Source: Aquamicrobium zhengzhouense (lineage in GTDB: Bacteria; Pseudomonadota; Alphaproteobacteria; Rhizobiales; Rhizobiaceae). From it: DNA of 64,000 nucleotides. The translations under genes were made by a program, and so were the position numbers. The notes beneath the pieces are model-generated. The model was given only the letters and a program-made list of their open reading frames with translations. It was not told the origin of the DNA and did no database searches. Shown here in pieces: positions 33,163-41,438 of the stretch; position 1 is the first letter of the stretch, and each line of letters opens with the position of its first letter. The stretch covers positions 364,707 through 428,706 of the forward strand of contig NZ_JADGMQ010000001.1 in the NCBI RefSeq assembly GCF_016124105.1, in the 5' to 3' direction.

Positions 33163-33744
33163 ATGCACTTTACGAAATTTTTCTCGTCCGCTTTGGTCGC
33201 GGCCAGCATTTTCGCCAGCTCTGGAGCTCTTGCTGAAGAGCTGGAGAACAAGATGGTCATTCAGCTCAAGGACGGGGAGGTCGTCGTTGCACTGCGCGAT
33301 GACTTGGCCCCCAAGCACGTTGAGCAGATCAAAAAGCTGGTTCGGGCGGGCGAGTATGACAACGTCGCTTTCCACCGCGTGATCGAGGGCTTCATGGCCC
33401 AAACTGGCGATGTTCAGTTCGGGGATCTCACGGAAGCCTATAACAGCCAGCGTGTTGGCACAGGCGGCTCCTCATTGGGAACGATTGAAGCCGAATTCTC
33501 TGCAGAGTCGTTTGTCCGAGGCACGGTTGGAATGGCTCGCGCGCAGGATCCGAATTCTGCCAACTCACAATTCTTCATCATGTTCGCGCCGGGATCGTTT
33601 CTCGATGGACAGTATACGGTCGTCGGCAACGTCGAAAGCGGCATGGAGTTCGTCGATAACATCAAGCGCGGTGAGGGTCCCAATGGTGCCGTCACTGATC
33701 CGGATCGCATGATCTCCGCGCGTATCGCCGCAGACGCCAATTAA
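33163..33744 (+). CDS. Cyclophilin-type peptidyl-prolyl isomerase, exported
   Basis: A 193-residue prolyl isomerase with a signal sequence of about 24 residues ending ALA-EE, so it should act on folding proteins in the periplasm. The cyclophilin core is intact: FHRVIEGFMAQTGD holds the catalytic Arg, and SANSQFFIMFA the substrate-binding residues. It has a short insert (VQFGDLTEAYNSQ) not found in its neighbour. The next gene, 27 bases on, is a cytoplasmic cyclophilin of similar sequence, so the pair looks like a tandem duplication that serves two compartments. Confidence 0.94.
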   Translation: MHFTKFFSSALVAASIFASSGALAEELENKMVIQLKDGEVVVALRDDLAPKHVEQIKKLVRAGEYDNVAFHRVIEGFMAQTGDVQFGDLTEAYNSQRVGTGGSSLGTIEAEFSAESFVRGTVGMARAQDPNSANSQFFIMFAPGSFLDGQYTVVGNVESGMEFVDNIKRGEGPNGAVTDPDRMISARIAADAN

Positions 33745-33771
33745 GAAACACCAGATCAGGAAGGATGCCAG

Positions 33772-34251
33772 ATGGCCGAGATCAAAGACCCCGAAAACAC
33801 GATCATCATGGAGACGACGAAAGGCAAGGTCGTCATTCAGCTTCTGCCAGATGTCGCACCGGGCCACGTCGCGCGCATCAAGGAGCTTGCTCGTGAGAAT
33901 TTCTACGACGGGATCGTTTTCCACCGTGTGATCGAGGGCTTTATGGCTCAGACCGGTGATCCGACCGGCACGGGCATGGGTGGCTCCGACAAGCCGGACC
34001 TGAAGGCAGAGTTTTCGAATATGAGCCACGTTCGCGGCACCTGCTCAATGGCTCGTTCGCAGAACCCGAACTCGGCGAATTCGCAGTTCTTCATCTGCTT
34101 TGATGATTCTGCGTGGCTGAACCGCCAGTACTCTGTCTGGGGTCAGGTCATTGAAGGCATGGAGAACATCGACAAGATCAAGCGCGGCGAGCCGGTGCGC
34201 GATCCGGACAGCATCGTCACGATGCGCGTCGCCGCCGACGTCCAGGCCTAA
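33772..34251 (+). CDS. ppiB: Cyclophilin-type peptidyl-prolyl isomerase, cytoplasmic
   Basis: A 159-residue single-domain cyclophilin without a signal sequence. FHRVIEGFMAQTGD, GTGMGGSDKP and NSANSQFFICF are conserved, including the catalytic Arg and the Phe/Met/Gln of the substrate site. It shares its core blocks with the preceding exported paralogue. A stem-loop follows the stop. AGGAAGGATG lies ahead of the start at a suitable distance. Confidence 0.95.
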   Translation: MAEIKDPENTIIMETTKGKVVIQLLPDVAPGHVARIKELARENFYDGIVFHRVIEGFMAQTGDPTGTGMGGSDKPDLKAEFSNMSHVRGTCSMARSQNPNSANSQFFICFDDSAWLNRQYSVWGQVIEGMENIDKIKRGEPVRDPDSIVTMRVAADVQA

Positions 34252-36664: not shown

Positions 36665-36717
36665 GGAGAAGCTTTCGTTCAACGAGAGATCATCTCAGCG
36701 GTTGCTAAAAGGACTTG

Positions 36718-36758
36718 CTTTCATTCCAGATGCTGATTGAAATAGCCTGGAATGGAGG
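36718..36758 (+). promoter_or_regulatory. Stem that buries the Shine-Dalgarno of the Anbu operon
   Basis: CTTTCATTCCAG (36718-36729) can pair with CTGGAATGGAGG (36747-36758) over 12 bases, with two G-U wobbles in the lower part. The right arm contains GGAGG (36754-36758), the ribosome binding site of the TTG start at 36766. The loop (36730-36746) carries an in-frame ATG. In the RNA this stem would block translation until opened, by heat, a factor, or a competing structure; the wobble pairs beside the binding site resemble those of RNA thermometers, which is only an analogy. Confidence 0.55.
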
Positions 36759-36765
36759 TTTCCGT

Positions 36766-38181
36766 TTGGCATCATTCGATGAGATGCGTCCGGGAGGCGC
36801 GGGAACGAGGCAACCTTACGCCGGATACGATTCCTGGTTTCAGAATCAAGATCCGGCGCGCCTGAAAGAAAAGATGCTGGATGCGGAATCGGTATTCCGA
36901 AAAACCGGCATCACCTTCGCGGTCTATGGCGAGGCAGAGGCGGCTGAGCGCCTGATACCATTCGACATTATTCCAAGGATAATCTCAGGCAGTGAGTGGC
37001 GCCGCCTTACCCAGGGCATCGAACAACGGGTTCAGGCGCTGAATGCATTTCTTGACGATATCTACCATCGGCAGGAGATCATCCGGTCGGGACGCCTTCC
37101 GAAGCATTTGATTGCGGGAAATGAAGCATTCCTTCCCGAGATGATCGGAGTGCGCCCGCCTTCTGGTGTCTACACTCACATCATTGGCGTCGATATTGTG
37201 CGCACTGGCGAAAACGAGTTTTTCGTTCTGGAGGACAATGCTCGTACGCCCTCGGGCGTCTCCTATATGCTCGAGAACCGAGAGACGATGATGCAGCTCT
37301 TCCCGGAGCTGTTTCAAAAAATCAAGGTTCGCCCAGTCGAAGATTACCCGCAATTGCTGCGGCAGTCTCTTTCGATGGTTGCTCCCGAACCGGCGAAGGG
37401 CGCGCCTACAGTGGCCGTGCTCACTCCGGGCATCTACAACTCCGCCTATTTCGAGCATGCGTTTCTCGCTGACCAGATGGGGGTCGAACTGGTCGAGGGA
37501 CATGATCTGCGCGTGATTGATGGGCATGTGGCGATGCGGACAACGCAAGGATACAAGCGGATCGACGTGCTCTATCGGCGTGTCGATGATTCTTTTCTCG
37601 ACCCGCTTACTTTCCGGCCGGATTCGACGCTGGGGGTCCCGGGTATCATGGACGTTTACCGGGCCGGGAACATCACGCTCGCAAACGCGCCTGGGACGGG
37701 AATCGCCGACGATAAGGCGATCTACTCCTACATGCCGGAGATCATCGAGTTTTACACCGGCCGAAAAGCGATACTCGGTAACATCCCTACGTGGCGGTGC
37801 TCCGAGCCGGATAGCCTTAAATACGTAATCGAGCACCTTGAAGAGTTGGTCGTCAAGGAGGTGCATGGATCAGGCGGTTACGGCATGCTGGTCGGGCCCG
37901 CCGCTTCAAAAAAAGAAAGAGACCTGTTCGCATCAAAGCTAAAGGCCAATCCTGCAAACTACATTGCTCAACCGACTTTGGCTCTTTCGACGTGCCCTAT
38001 ACTGACCGAGGCAGGTCTTGCTCCGCGCCATGTCGACCTTCGTCCGTTCGTTCTCATGTCGGACCGTATCACGATCGTCCCCGGCGGGCTGACTCGCGTT
38101 GCCCTCAAAGAGGGATCCCTCGTGGTCAATTCATCTCAAGGAGGCGGTACCAAGGACACATGGGTGCTGGATGACTGGTAA
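36766..38181 (+). CDS. Circularly permuted ATP-grasp protein (Anbu operon)
   Basis: A 471-residue protein of the circularly permuted type 2 ATP-grasp family, predicted to use ATP to join a carboxyl group to an amine, perhaps to make a peptide tag. Characteristic blocks are FDEM at the start, TFAVYGEAEAAERLIPFD, LEDNARTPSGVSYMLENR, RRVDDSFLDPL, and a Lys/Gly strand VVKEVHGSGGYGM. I chose TTG 36766, where family similarity starts, with GGAGG seven bases ahead; ATG 36730 is in frame and possible but lacks a binding site. The alpha-E, transglutaminase and Anbu genes follow at 14, -1 and 26 bases. Confidence 0.9.
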   Translation: MASFDEMRPGGAGTRQPYAGYDSWFQNQDPARLKEKMLDAESVFRKTGITFAVYGEAEAAERLIPFDIIPRIISGSEWRRLTQGIEQRVQALNAFLDDIYHRQEIIRSGRLPKHLIAGNEAFLPEMIGVRPPSGVYTHIIGVDIVRTGENEFFVLEDNARTPSGVSYMLENRETMMQLFPELFQKIKVRPVEDYPQLLRQSLSMVAPEPAKGAPTVAVLTPGIYNSAYFEHAFLADQMGVELVEGHDLRVIDGHVAMRTTQGYKRIDVLYRRVDDSFLDPLTFRPDSTLGVPGIMDVYRAGNITLANAPGTGIADDKAIYSYMPEIIEFYTGRKAILGNIPTWRCSEPDSLKYVIEHLEELVVKEVHGSGGYGMLVGPAASKKERDLFASKLKANPANYIAQPTLALSTCPILTEAGLAPRHVDLRPFVLMSDRITIVPGGLTRVALKEGSLVVNSSQGGGTKDTWVLDDW

Positions 38182-38195
38182 GGGGGCGCACTGAC

Positions 38196-39137
38196 ATGCT
38201 GCTTGGACGCACGGCAAACGACCTCTACTGGATGAGCCGCTACATCGAACGCGCAGAAAACATGGCACGCCTCGTCGACGCGGGTCTTCGACTTGCATTG
38301 ACCCGCACTGAATCCGCCTCGGACGAATGGTCATCAGTTGTGGCGAGTGCGGGAGCCAAGGCCGCCTATGAGGCGCGCTATTCCAGCTACACGGCAGAAG
38401 CTGTTGGAGATTTCCTTCTCAGAGACAGCACGTATCCATCCAGCGTGATCTCGTGCATCGAGGCCGGACGTTCTAATGCGCGAATGGTCAGAACGGCGCT
38501 GACCCGTGAAAATTGGGAAAGCATCAACGAGACCTGGATGGCGTTCAAGACACTGCTGGCACCGGAAATTGACCAGCGCGAATTGCCGTCGATCCTCGAC
38601 CAGATCAAGCGCCAGACCGCGCTGATCCGGGGTGCGTTTCATGGCACGATGCTTCGAAACGAGATCTTCGATTTTGCGCAGCTCGGAATTTATGTGGAGC
38701 GTGCGGACAACACCGCACGTATCCTAGACGTAAAATATTACGTTCTTCTGCCCTCTCTGTCCTGGGTCGGTTCCTCACTGGACAACTACCAATGGGAATC
38801 GATCTTGCGGTCCGTCTCGGCGCACCGTTCGTATAGGTGGGTGTACGAGGCGGATTACAAACCGAGGAACATCGCGCACTTTCTCATACTCAACCGGCGG
38901 ATGCCTCGTTCGCTGGCCTTTTGTTATCGTATGATCGCGGAAGGCCTGGAATTGCTGGCGGAAGATTATGGCGAGCGCCATACCTGTCATGACACCTTGG
39001 ACGAGATCCGCCGCCAATTAGCTCCCGACTCAATTGACCAGATCTTTGAGAATGGCCTTCACGAGTTCCTCAGTCATTTCATTCGCTGTAACAACAGGTT
39101 CGGCGAAGAAGTTGCAGAAGATTACAGGTTCTTCTGA
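38196..39137 (+). CDS. Alpha-E domain protein (Anbu operon)
   Basis: A 313-residue, mostly helical protein of the alpha-E family (DUF403), always found near ATP-grasp and transglutaminase genes of this kind. The start LLGRTANDLYWMSRYIERAENMARL and SVSAHRSYRW and MPRSLAFCYRMI blocks are typical. It has no known catalytic motif and is thought to be a structural partner in a peptide-synthesis or modification system; that is inference from gene neighbourhoods. Its TGA overlaps the ATG of the next gene by one base. Confidence 0.92.
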   Translation: MLLGRTANDLYWMSRYIERAENMARLVDAGLRLALTRTESASDEWSSVVASAGAKAAYEARYSSYTAEAVGDFLLRDSTYPSSVISCIEAGRSNARMVRTALTRENWESINETWMAFKTLLAPEIDQRELPSILDQIKRQTALIRGAFHGTMLRNEIFDFAQLGIYVERADNTARILDVKYYVLLPSLSWVGSSLDNYQWESILRSVSAHRSYRWVYEADYKPRNIAHFLILNRRMPRSLAFCYRMIAEGLELLAEDYGERHTCHDTLDEIRRQLAPDSIDQIFENGLHEFLSHFIRCNNRFGEEVAEDYRFF

Positions 39138-39934
39138 TGCGGCTCAGGATCTCGCACCAGACCCAATATAGCTACGACAGCCCGCTGCCTTACGCGCTTC
39201 AGCGGATACGTCTTTGTCCCCAATCGGGGCCCACACAGGATGTCTTTTCCTGGAAATTGGACGTGTTGGGCGCAAAGGAAGAGGTCCGATTTAACGACCA
39301 TTTCGGCAACGACACGCGTCTGTTTAGCGTGACGCCTGGCACCTCTCAGGTCACCATACTCGCATCCGGCGAGGTTGAAGTTAAGAACGTTTCTGGTGTC
39401 CTCGGGCCCCATTCGGGAGATGCACCATTATGGCTTTTTCAGCAGGAAACCGCACTTACGCAGCACGGTCCATTGGCGACTGAATTGCTAAACGGCGATG
39501 AGCGGAATGTCGATCTGCTGGAGCAGTTGCATGATTTATCCGCCCGTATCCGGCAGCGTGTCTCCTATCGTGTTGGAGCTACGGACGCTTCTACAACCGC
39601 GGAAGAAGCGTTGAACATGGGGGAGGGTGTTTGTCAGGATCACACGCATATCTTCCTGTCCACAGCACGAAGGCTTGGTGTCCCCGCGCGGTACGTGAGC
39701 GGCTACCTTATGCTGGATGATACCGTTCAGCAGGTGGCTACCCATGCGTGGGCCGAGGCCCATATTGATGGCCTCGGCTGGGTCGGCTTTGACGTTTCAA
39801 ACGGTATTTCACCTGACGACCGATATACTCGCATCGCAGTCGGCCGCGACTATCGGGACGCAATGCCGTTTTCGGGTATACGCGTGGGCCTCGCGCAGGA
39901 ACTTCTTGAAGTTCACATCACGGTAGAGCAGTAG
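39137..39934 (+). CDS. Transglutaminase-like cysteine protease (Anbu operon)
   Basis: A 265-residue transglutaminase-fold protein with an N-terminal beta-rich domain (RLRISHQTQYSYDSPLPYALQ start region) and a C-terminal core. The catalytic triad reads Cys166 (EGVCQDHTH), His203 (THAWAEAHI) and Asp219 (GFDVSNG), at the normal spacing, so it should be an active thiol enzyme, probably a peptidase or amidase. No signal sequence is visible, so it is expected to be cytoplasmic with the rest of the cluster. It precedes Anbu by 26 bases. Confidence 0.92.
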   Translation: MRLRISHQTQYSYDSPLPYALQRIRLCPQSGPTQDVFSWKLDVLGAKEEVRFNDHFGNDTRLFSVTPGTSQVTILASGEVEVKNVSGVLGPHSGDAPLWLFQQETALTQHGPLATELLNGDERNVDLLEQLHDLSARIRQRVSYRVGATDASTTAEEALNMGEGVCQDHTHIFLSTARRLGVPARYVSGYLMLDDTVQQVATHAWAEAHIDGLGWVGFDVSNGISPDDRYTRIAVGRDYRDAMPFSGIRVGLAQELLEVHITVEQ

Positions 39935-39960
39935 TTTTCTTTTCCACTGGGACCCTTTCG

Positions 39961-40689
39961 ATGACTTACTGCGTCGGCGTGAAGTTTAATCGCGGACTGG
40001 CCTTCATGTCGGACACCCGCACAAACGCCGGGGTCGATTCCATCTCGGTTTTCAAGAAGATGTACACGTGGGAGGTTCCAGGCGAGCGGGCCTTCGTGTT
40101 GCTCGCTGCAGGCAATTTGGCGACGACACAGGCGGTCGTCAGCTTGCTGGATGAACGAGCCAAGAGTGTTGCGGATCGTTCGCCGACCCTTTTGAAAACC
40201 CCCTCCATGTATCAGACGGCACGGCTTGTTGGAGACACGGTTAAAGAGGTGATCGCGACGTCCGCTTCGGGAGGCCAAAACGCTGATGCCTTCAGCGCCT
40301 CTTTTATTCTGGGTGGGCAGGTGAAGGGCGGCGAACCGCGTCTTTTCCTGATCTACCCGGAAGGGAATTTTATTGAGAGCAGCGAGGACACGCCATTCTT
40401 TCAGATTGGTGAGACGAAGTACGGTAAACCTATACTCATCCGCGCTTACGATCCTGACATGAGTTTCTCGCAAGCCACCAAACTTCTGGCGATCTCTTTC
40501 GATTCGACGATCAGATCGAATTTATCAGTCGGGATGCCGCTCGACATGACGTTCTACGAGCGCGATTCGTTGTCTCTCGGATACCGGGCGCGCCTGGAGC
40601 AGGATGATCCATACTATAAGGAAGTGTCGGAGCGGTGGTCGGAAGCCCTTCGGGACACCTTCAATGTCTTGCCCGACTACCCACTATAA
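39961..40689 (+). CDS. Anbu, proteasome-like peptidase
   Basis: A 242-residue protein of the Ntn-hydrolase fold that matches Anbu, the ancestral-type bacterial relative of proteasome beta subunits. It starts MTYCVGVKFNRGLAFMSDTRTN: removal of Met exposes Thr1 as the predicted nucleophile, Asp17 and a Lys near position 32 (FKKMY) supply the other active-site residues, and SDTRTNAG is the family signature. No propeptide is needed. Anbu assembles into open helical or ring-like oligomers in the cases studied; its substrates are unknown. It is last in the four-gene operon with ATP-grasp, alpha-E and transglutaminase genes, the usual neighbourhood. Confidence 0.94.
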   Translation: MTYCVGVKFNRGLAFMSDTRTNAGVDSISVFKKMYTWEVPGERAFVLLAAGNLATTQAVVSLLDERAKSVADRSPTLLKTPSMYQTARLVGDTVKEVIATSASGGQNADAFSASFILGGQVKGGEPRLFLIYPEGNFIESSEDTPFFQIGETKYGKPILIRAYDPDMSFSQATKLLAISFDSTIRSNLSVGMPLDMTFYERDSLSLGYRARLEQDDPYYKEVSERWSEALRDTFNVLPDYPL

Positions 40690-40694
40690 GAAAA

Positions 40695-40716
40695 GGGGGA
40701 AGCTTGCGCTTCCCCC
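40695..40716. terminator. Terminator between Anbu and the BA14K gene
   Basis: GGGGGAAGC (40695-40703) pairs perfectly with GCTTCCCCC (40708-40716) across TTGC. Reading the minus strand the stem runs into CTTTTCTT, giving a good intrinsic terminator for the BA14K gene; on the plus strand it lies six bases after the Anbu stop with only a short T/A stretch, so it may serve both. Confidence 0.8.
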
Positions 40717-40728
40717 TAATCGGTTCGC

Positions 40729-41199
40729 TTAACGGTAAGGCGACGTGCACTGACGGCGCGGGCCGTTATATGGCTGGAAGGTGTTGTCTGATGGACGGTA
40801 TGAACGATACCGGTTCAGGCAGTAATCGACGTGGGCGTCACTGCCGCGATAGACACGGGTTGGGGGCGCAACGTGGCGAGGCTGCTGATTGGCAATCGCG
40901 CCGCTGATCACCGCACCAGCGATGAAAGCGGCAGCGGGGAACCAGAAGTCGCCGTGGCGGCGGTAACCTGGGCGATGGTCGCGGTAGCCCCGATGTCCAC
41001 GCCAATAGACGTCCCGTCCTCGACGTTCGAATCGGTCTCGGCGCTGATGTCTATCTCTCCGCCATTCGCCCTGTACCTGGATAACGGAGTCGCTCCGATC
41101 CCAGGAAGGAGCCCCAGTTGGCATGGCAATCGCCGGTGCAGCGAAGGGGACTGTCAGGGCCATGGCGGCCGCGCATAAGGTTGATACTATTTTCAACAT
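40729..41199 (-). CDS. BA14K family exported protein
   Basis: A 156-residue protein with a signal peptide (LKIVSTLCAAAMALTVPF) ending near AIA-MP, a long Arg/Gly/Tyr/His-rich middle (RRDRHQRRDRFERR), one hydrophobic segment (WFPAAAFIAGAVISGAI), and the BA14K motif at the C-terminus (DYCLNRYRSYRPSDNTF, then CTSPY). BA14K is a lectin-like immunoreactive protein of Brucella; relatives are small membrane proteins of Hyphomicrobiales. GAGGA precedes ATG 41199 by seven bases; an upstream in-frame ATG is not favoured. A general-stress-type promoter lies about 50 bases upstream. Confidence 0.88.
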   Translation of the reverse strand: MLKIVSTLCAAAMALTVPFAAPAIAMPTGAPSWDRSDSVIQVQGEWRRDRHQRRDRFERRGRDVYWRGHRGYRDHRPGYRRHGDFWFPAAAFIAGAVISGAIANQQPRHVAPPTRVYRGSDAHVDYCLNRYRSYRPSDNTFQPYNGPRRQCTSPYR

Positions 41200-41246
41200 G
41201 CCTGATCCTCTTGCATTGTTGGTCTCGTTCGGTCCCTTCCGGCAGA

Positions 41247-41271
41247 AACGGCGGGGCTGTTGAAACGTTCC
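41247..41271 (-). promoter_or_regulatory. EcfG (general stress) type promoter for the BA14K gene
   Basis: On the minus strand GGAAC (41271-41267) is followed by a 16-base spacer and CGTT (41250-41247), which fits the GGAAC-N16/17-cGTT consensus of the alphaproteobacterial general stress sigma factor EcfG. Transcription would begin near 41240, leaving a leader of about 40 bases before ATG 41199. No other good match was found in the intergenic regions of this window. Confidence 0.55.
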
Positions 41272-41300
41272 CAAAAGCGTGTTTTTCGTTGATATTGCTG

Positions 41301-41362: not shown

Positions 41363-41438
41363 GAGCGCGTAGCTCAGCCGGTAGAGCAACTGACTTTTAA
41401 TCAGTAGGTCCAGGGTTCGAACCCCTGCGCGCTCACCA
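41363..41438 (+). tRNA. tRNA-Lys (anticodon UUU)
   Basis: A complete 76-base cloverleaf. The 7-bp acceptor stem is GAGCGCG with CGCGCTC, the D arm GCTC-GAGC, the anticodon arm ACTGA-CTTTTAA-TCAGT with anticodon TTT, and the T arm CAGGG-TTCGAAC-CCCTG. The 3' CCA is encoded at 41436-41438. It stands alone between the BA14K gene and the Glu/Leu dehydrogenase gene, with its own promoter upstream. No intron or odd base is seen. Confidence 0.98.

Follow-up and report, generated by a model that had tools for sequence, protein, structure and literature searches.

The 64,000-nucleotide stretch of Aquamicrobium zhengzhouense DNA analysed here (contig NZ_JADGMQ010000001.1, positions 364,707 to 428,706; hereafter the window) contains an intact, ordinary member of the already known Anbu operon family, whose four genes encode a circularly permuted ATP-grasp protein, an alpha-E protein, a transglutaminase-like protein and the proteasome relative Anbu (Table 1). 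Comparison with related loci and with genomes of the phylum revealed that ATP-grasp and alpha-E are the constant part of this gene set and that Anbu and the transglutaminase-like protein are optional. The operon may run a cycle in which an amide is made by ATP-grasp and alpha-E and cut by Anbu, by the transglutaminase-like protein or by both, a reading that could equally well prove right or wrong.

The Anbu operon has been in print since 2008–2009 (PMC6376114, PMC5666114; here and below, papers are cited from their accessible parts), and Anbu itself was named in 2008 (PMC5666114). According to the accessible part of PMC8665760, no function was known for it as of 2021.

Conservation and Co-occurrence of the Operon Genes

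The four genes run head to tail on the plus strand in the order ATP-grasp, alpha-E, transglutaminase-like protein and Anbu (36766–40689), which is the gene set of the Anbu operon. An earlier note on this DNA, made from its letters alone, had described four genes on one strand, spaced by 14, −1 and 26 bases; direct reading of the coordinates gives exactly these values, and Pfam matches agree with the four families that it had named. Its statement that the neighbourhood recurs was borne out as well, the same order being kept in 72 of 80 related loci. These are the best-scoring 80 of 593 matches and therefore the closest relatives of the window; by title they span several alphaproteobacterial orders, and the nearest named ones are Rhizobiaceae-like (Aquamicrobium, Mesorhizobium, Nitratireductor).

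Sixty-seven of the 72 order-keeping loci follow the order directly (some with the ATP-grasp gene cut by a contig end), three have an extra upstream transglutaminase, one has two overlapping ATP-grasp frames and one was mis-sorted purely through overlapping open frames. Four of the remaining eight loci lack genes at a contig end, and four are different: two Aureimonas loci (L094 and L111) lack the transglutaminase, L116 is rearranged and L131 has Anbu alone. The rearranged Lentibacter locus (L116:9064–17564) holds a transglutaminase and Anbu, a transglutaminase-DUF2126 protein of 1207 amino acids on the other strand, and then ATP-grasp, alpha-E and a transglutaminase. In L131 (9731–10741), which comes from an alphaproteobacterial metagenome-assembled genome, Anbu stands without the other three genes in its 20-kb locus.

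Two candidates for a further component were rejected. None of the 45 widest neighbour families listed occurs in more than 25 of the 80 loci, and these families lie at scattered distances or reflect local synteny (frames not individually annotated), which does not make a recurrent fifth gene. The 15 widest small-frame families listed reach at most 11 of the 80 loci and represent local synteny or antisense frames, so a tag peptide encoded beside the operon was not accepted either.

Among 200 genomes of the phylum, alpha-E was identified in 112, and the same 112 have ATP-grasp; four further genomes show weak ATP-grasp matches alone (E 2e-4 to 1e-7). Counted by the family cut-off, ATP-grasp is present in 113 of the 200 genomes, and by that measure alpha-E accompanies it in 112 of 113. 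Anbu occurs in 69 of the 200 genomes, 68 of which also have the ATP-grasp/alpha-E pair, and 44 of the 112 genomes with the pair have no Anbu. A similar distribution was found in 40 near relatives including the source genome, where all 20 genomes with Anbu fall within the 26 with alpha-E; two genomes of the same genus lack both. Anbu thus goes with the ATP-grasp/alpha-E pair, and the pair is often found without Anbu. In 59 of the 69 genomes with Anbu the gene lies at most 8 kb from a listed ATP-grasp gene; for one genome (G188) the position of ATP-grasp is absent from the listing. A diverged Anbu (34% identity) at G055:C1:3056235–3056933 is separated from the ATP-grasp/alpha-E genes by about 370 kb.

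The transglutaminase is absent from the cluster in the two Aureimonas loci and in two genomes of the phylum set (G070 and G180). The Aureimonas genomes and G070 hold more distant transglutaminase-like matches elsewhere, and the contig of G180 ends near the cluster. In G120, a diverged transglutaminase is located on the opposite side of Anbu.

ATP-Grasp and Alpha-E Proteins

ATP-grasp proteins activate a carboxylate with ATP and join it to an amine. In a sequence search the stand-alone ATP-grasp of the window matched PDB entry 3n6x across nearly its whole length, and every residue of the circularly permuted signature (E156, D157, N158, D315, D316, K317, K364, D424, and N455) is present. The signature positions were picked by conservation, and we presume their catalytic roles from the family.

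A second, fused kind of ATP-grasp was found in the phylum. Frames of at least 800 codons include at least 36 ATP-grasp matches among those listed; an alpha-E match of the same length is listed for 24 of these 36, the other 12 have no listed alpha-E row, and one ATP-grasp/alpha-E fusion was confirmed by Pfam. The alignment comprised 22 fused ATP-grasps (20 drawn from the 36, plus those of G074 and G058, themselves members of that set) and 20 stand-alone ones, which come from 20 of these 22 genomes. All 20 stand-alone proteins keep every signature residue, whereas six of the positions (E156, N158, D315, D316, D424, and N455) are kept in none of the 22 fused ones, although the replacement of D315 by Glu in all 22 is a mild change. 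K317 is kept in one fused protein and K364 in four, in a region where the alignment is unsure; D157 and R271 are kept in 21 of 22, and D279, N307 and R426 in all 22. Because of these losses, the fused ATP-grasp probably does not function as a ligase.

The alpha-E part of the same fusions keeps R15, R19, E168 and R169 in 22 of 22 cases, E18 and R99 in 21, and R25 and R154 in 20. K180, W200 and H289, invariant in 12 stand-alone alpha-E rows, are lost in all 22 fused copies. That the ER motifs are kept while the fused ATP-grasp is degraded suggests an independent role for alpha-E. The window carries the stand-alone, intact kind of ATP-grasp, and the single ATP-grasp match and single alpha-E match in the source genome indicate that it has no such fusion. 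No earlier report of a degraded fused ATP-grasp was found among the matches listed by a literature search, whose scope did not extend to Iyer 2009. Fused genes are also present in L141 and L143–L162.

The alpha-E protein is internally duplicated. Residues 16–96 and 166–252, each with an ER motif, were aligned by hhalign with a probability of 97% and an E-value of 2.2e-11, the latter referring to a single comparison. When the two repeats were delimited in three other ways, the probability was 95–98%; a later segment pair in the same register gave 57% and the three out-of-register pairs at most 16%. No earlier report of the duplication turned up among the literature matches listed, where no search was aimed at the duplication and Iyer 2009 lay outside the scope. 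Predicted structures were built from 68 of the 76 alpha-E rows and 61 of the 77 transglutaminase rows prepared. When the alpha-E model was compared with 350,542 solved chains, no match at E ≤ 0.001 was obtained (the best, at 0.28, was a designed barrel), and the sequence matched no PDB chain better than E 0.08. A likeness of the fold to di-iron enzymes (E 3.6–5.6) was not accepted as evidence.

Anbu and the Transglutaminase-Like Protein

The N-terminus of Anbu reads M-T-Y-C, and mature positions 17 and 32 are Asp and Lys, in agreement with the free Thr, Asp17 and Lys that the earlier note had read. The protein matches five listed PDB sequences of solved Anbu (5loy, 5nyj, 5nyf, 5nyw, and 5lox; E 6.1e-93 to 4.7e-70) over residues 2–240, approximately. 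Residues were compared by aligning the window with as many as 80 related loci (76–81 rows per protein), a check that the note had proposed, and the catalytic residues proved to be kept nearly throughout. In Anbu, Thr is found in 80 of 81 rows with one Ser, and Asp and Lys in 81 of 81; a broader set of 20 Anbu proteins, with identities as low as 44%, shows no exception at Asp or Lys and almost none at Thr.

The S1 pocket consists of T20, F30, A48, L52 and T55 in the window and of T20, F30, T48, L52 and S55 in PaAnbu. With its hydrophobic T20, F30 and L52, the protein of the window belongs to the Anbu-1 subtype, unlike the basic pocket of Anbu-2. Position 48 is Ala, as in the window, in two of the 81 rows, Thr in 46, Ser in 31 and Cys in two. 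Thr1 of PaAnbu is modified by epoxomicin and MG132, which indicates that this nucleophile is competent; standard substrates were not cleaved by PaAnbu, and a Cytophaga Anbu-2 gave no reaction, as described in the accessible part of PMC5666114.

In the transglutaminase-like protein, the triad that had been named for it, Cys166, His203 and Asp219, is present, and the relatives keep Cys in 77 of 78 rows (with one gap) and His and Asp in 78 of 78. Both its sequence and its predicted fold match PDB 3isr, which is labelled a putative cysteine protease, and it has the triad as well as the fold of a transglutaminase-like cysteine hydrolase.

By a crude hydropathy measure, the N-termini of the four proteins are all less hydrophobic than those of two proteins in the window that are exported or membrane-bound, and all four proteins are probably cytoplasmic. 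The earlier note had called the locus a complete, cytoplasmic system. The second adjective is consistent with the lack of a strongly hydrophobic N-terminus; the first fits less well, because some clusters that are otherwise intact have no transglutaminase and the pair without Anbu is common.

Gene Starts, Upstream Elements and Genomic Setting

Translation of ATP-grasp probably begins at the TTG codon at 36766, behind GGAGG. The open reading frame finder gave a longer frame that starts from TTG at 36715, but its use is unlikely, since a promoter-like element spans that start. This element scored 12–13 of 13 in 14 of 70 upstream regions (the window and 69 of the 80 loci), always at −50 to −55, compared with 0.1 per 70 at score 12 and none at 13 in shuffled sequences and scores of at most 11 in random stretches of these loci. 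Since the pattern was first read from such sequences, the test is to some extent circular. The 14 carriers are all Rhizobiaceae-like by title, and the other 56 regions are without the element. A general promoter scan of the locus gave matches no more numerous than in shuffles.

A sigma54/NtrC promoter upstream of ATP-grasp was also considered and rejected: 14 of the 70 regions scored at least 12 of 15, compared with 9.3 in mononucleotide shuffles, an excess that is too small. The best single sigma54-like site (score 14) is that of L116, and a simple consensus would miss other sites. In 10 Rhizobiaceae-like loci (L061:6140–6439 and nine others), a small frame that looks Lrp/AsnC-like by eye lies upstream of the operon.

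Table 1. Features of the Anbu operon and its borders, in window coordinates.
Feature	Position	Strand	Description
Promoter-like element CTTGCTTT...TGAAAT	36714..36743	+	Common to near relatives; −50 to −55 from ATP-grasp start
Ribosome-binding site GGAGG of ATP-grasp gene	36754..36758	+	Read directly; 7 bases 5′ of TTG start
ATP-grasp gene	36766–38181	+	Circularly permuted, 471 amino acids, predicted amide ligase; Pfam CP_ATPgrasp_2 PF14403 2.7e-167, PF04174 1.6e-148; PDB 3n6x E 6.7e-199; signature residues kept
Alpha-E gene	38196–39137	+	313 amino acids; PF04168 1.3e-93; model all-helical, predicted local distance difference test score (pLDDT) 90.7; internal duplication; one ER motif per half
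Alpha-E duplication, first copy	38241..38483	+	Residues 16–96; hhalign 97%
Alpha-E duplication, second copy	38691..38951	+	Residues 166–252; hhalign 97%
Transglutaminase-like gene	39137–39934	+	265 amino acids; Transglut_core PF01841 1.1e-21, Bact_transglu_N PF08379 1e-18; Cys166/His203/Asp219; model pLDDT 96.1; nearest PDB 3isr E 4.3e-21
Anbu gene	39961–40689	+	242 amino acids; Proteasome PF00227 1.1e-8; mature Thr1/Asp17/Lys32; PDB 5loy 6.1e-93
Hairpin between convergent Anbu (+) and BA14K-like (−) genes	40694..40717	Terminator-like for −	Consensus match alone

The source genome comprises 4.07 Mb in 29 contigs and has two proteasome-family matches, Anbu and another on contig C5 that we take to be HslV. 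On the 5′ side of the operon lie queA and genes that, as we recognised them without a search, are presumably tgt and gyrA. Two neighbouring putative peptidyl-prolyl isomerase-like genes were recognised by eye at 33163–34251, the first of which has a signal-like N-terminus. On the 3′ side lie a BA14K-like gene (40729–41274, minus strand) that converges on Anbu with the terminator-like hairpin in between, tRNA-Lys (anticodon ttt, 41363–41438), which is the sole tRNA found in the window by ARAGORN, and a glutamate/leucine-type dehydrogenase gene (Pfam; below NCBIfam equivalog cut-offs).

Proposed Function and Alternative Explanations

We propose that the operon works in the cytoplasm as a make-and-cut amide cycle. 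ATP-grasp would join an ATP-activated carboxylate to an amine, and alpha-E, its constant partner, would bind the ATP-grasp protein and hold the substrate or product. Anbu, as an open spiral of proteasome-like subunits, might cut or remodel the product of ATP-grasp; the transglutaminase-like cysteine hydrolase might cut or remodel the same product, and some relatives lack it or Anbu. We infer that Anbu cuts the product of ATP-grasp/alpha-E and that all four proteins act on one product. In favour of the cycle are the joint occurrence of alpha-E and ATP-grasp in 112 genomes, their fusion in another protein type, the pair being present in 68 of 69 genomes with Anbu, the closeness of Anbu to ATP-grasp in 59 of them, the conserved catalytic residues, the phosphate released from ATP by an operon ATP-grasp (PMC6376114) and the reaction of PaAnbu Thr1 with epoxomicin (PMC5666114).

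The cycle would probably be used when nitrogen is short. On nitrate versus ammonium, P. putida showed log2 fold changes of 4.44 for PP_2685 (Anbu) and 3.99 for PP_2688 (ATP-grasp) (PMC8050072). Anbu is upregulated in nitrogen-limited P. putida (PMC5666114 citing Hervas 2008), and its expression is described as unchanged in various conditions besides nitrogen limitation (PMC5666114). In a Burkholderia ntrC mutant, DUF404/407, DUF403 and two transglutaminase-domain genes have table values of −6.0 to −9.4; this ATP-grasp/alpha-E/transglutaminase cluster is NtrC/sigma54-dependent, and Anbu is unnamed in the accessible description of it (PMC5491218). Control by sigma54 has been predicted for COG3484 (PMC12316311).

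Several points weigh against the proposed cycle. In the accessible part of PMC6376114, no peptidase or amidase activity was detected for YbAnbu, HyAnbu or PaAnbu, no specific interaction was found among the Yersinia operon proteins, and the ATP-grasp of the operon was not stimulated by Anbu. The earlier note had judged the enzymes all likely active; conserved residues, the reactive Thr1 of PaAnbu and the release of phosphate from ATP by the ATP-grasp of one Anbu operon (PMC6376114) speak for this, and the inactivity of three Anbu proteins as peptidases speaks against it. In five genomes Anbu and ATP-grasp share a contig but are more than 8 kb apart, in three they are on different contigs, and one genome called 100% complete (G133, locus L053; G133:C88:6053–6775) has Anbu without ATP-grasp or alpha-E. 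Upstream of 70 of the ATP-grasp genes, sigma54-like sites exceed shuffles only slightly, and a link to nitrogen is therefore not demonstrated for these close relatives.

Ubiquitin-like tagging, in which ATP-grasp and the transglutaminase would attach a peptide to proteins and Anbu would degrade the tagged proteins or strip the tag, has already been proposed in print (PMC6376114 citing Iyer 2009 and Valas 2008). We consider it unlikely, because no small frame among the widest families recurs beside the cluster, so that any tag would be encoded elsewhere or made without the ribosome, because some clusters have no transglutaminase, and because no unfoldase is known for Anbu in the accessible parts of PMC5666114 and PMC8665760. 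Nothing in the locus data demonstrates a protein tag. PMC6376114 also suggests scavenging under nitrogen starvation, with non-specific degradation of proteins by Anbu and release of ammonia by the transglutaminase-like enzyme, and the raised expression under nitrogen limitation would fit this (PMC5666114, PMC5491218, PMC8050072). However, such scavenging leaves unexplained why ATP-grasp and alpha-E are constant and Anbu is optional, and peptide cleavage was not seen in the accessible part of PMC6376114; we find this explanation improbable.

It is quite doubtful that, instead of being a hydrolase, Anbu acts as a ligase or transpeptidase and links peptides that ATP-grasp provides. The proteasome-like homologue connectase ligates proteins (PMC8665760), and the competence of Thr1 in PaAnbu (PMC5666114), yet with no hydrolysis in the accessible part of PMC6376114, would suit such a role. 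Connectase is unlike Anbu, however, in being a monomer, in lacking helices H1–H2 and in having a two-helix insertion (PMC8665760), and transfer by Anbu is reported nowhere in the accessible parts of PMC8665760, PMC6376114 and PMC5666114. The four genes might also be neighbours through ancestry, with unrelated substrates for the transglutaminase-like protein and Anbu. The absence of each of these two from some clusters and the lack of specific interaction between the Yersinia proteins in the accessible part of PMC6376114 agree with such an origin, but the presence of the pair in all but one of the genomes with Anbu and the conserved order across several alphaproteobacterial orders make it very unlikely.

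A more specific version of the make-and-cut cycle, which we offer tentatively and hold to be rather unlikely, places alpha-E and not Anbu at its centre. The duplicated all-helical fold, unseen among solved structures, would shuttle the amide product between its ligase, ATP-grasp, and a set of interchangeable hydrolases; the conjugate would be non-ribosomal, nitrogen-rich and made under nitrogen limitation; and the fused copy, in which ATP-grasp is degraded but the ER motifs are intact, would act as a carrier or regulator, with DUF2126 serving it instead.

Relation to Known Systems

The Anbu operons of Yersinia bercovieri and Pseudomonas have the same four families, order and catalytic residues as the window, and nothing essential differs; the window has Ala48 in the S1 pocket and Thr55 where PaAnbu has Ser. 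The cluster on contig C1 of G074 (L140:3595–10349; neighbours read in L140 alone) shares the ATP-grasp, alpha-E and transglutaminase families and is composed of a transglutaminase-DUF2126 gene, an ATP-grasp/alpha-E fusion and a second transglutaminase. Different from the window, it has no Anbu, it has the putative amidoligase DUF2126, and its fused ATP-grasp lacks the signature residues.

RimK/RimB, which acts in RpsF polyglutamylation, broadly resembles the proposed cycle in that residues are attached by an ATP-grasp and taken off again by a protease associated with it (PMC11957791). That protease is retropepsin-like aspartic, unlike Anbu, and we claim no membership for the window. The RloABC operon of Pseudomonas aeruginosa, like the window, combines protease, transglutaminase-like and ATP-grasp genes; it differs in its secreted aspartic proteases and inactive membrane transglutaminase (PMC12239564).

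The window adds one member to the Anbu operon family, and the useful additions come from the genome comparison. For the function of Anbu, the comparison points to the product of the constant ATP-grasp/alpha-E pair, for which Anbu and the transglutaminase-like protein would be optional cutters.

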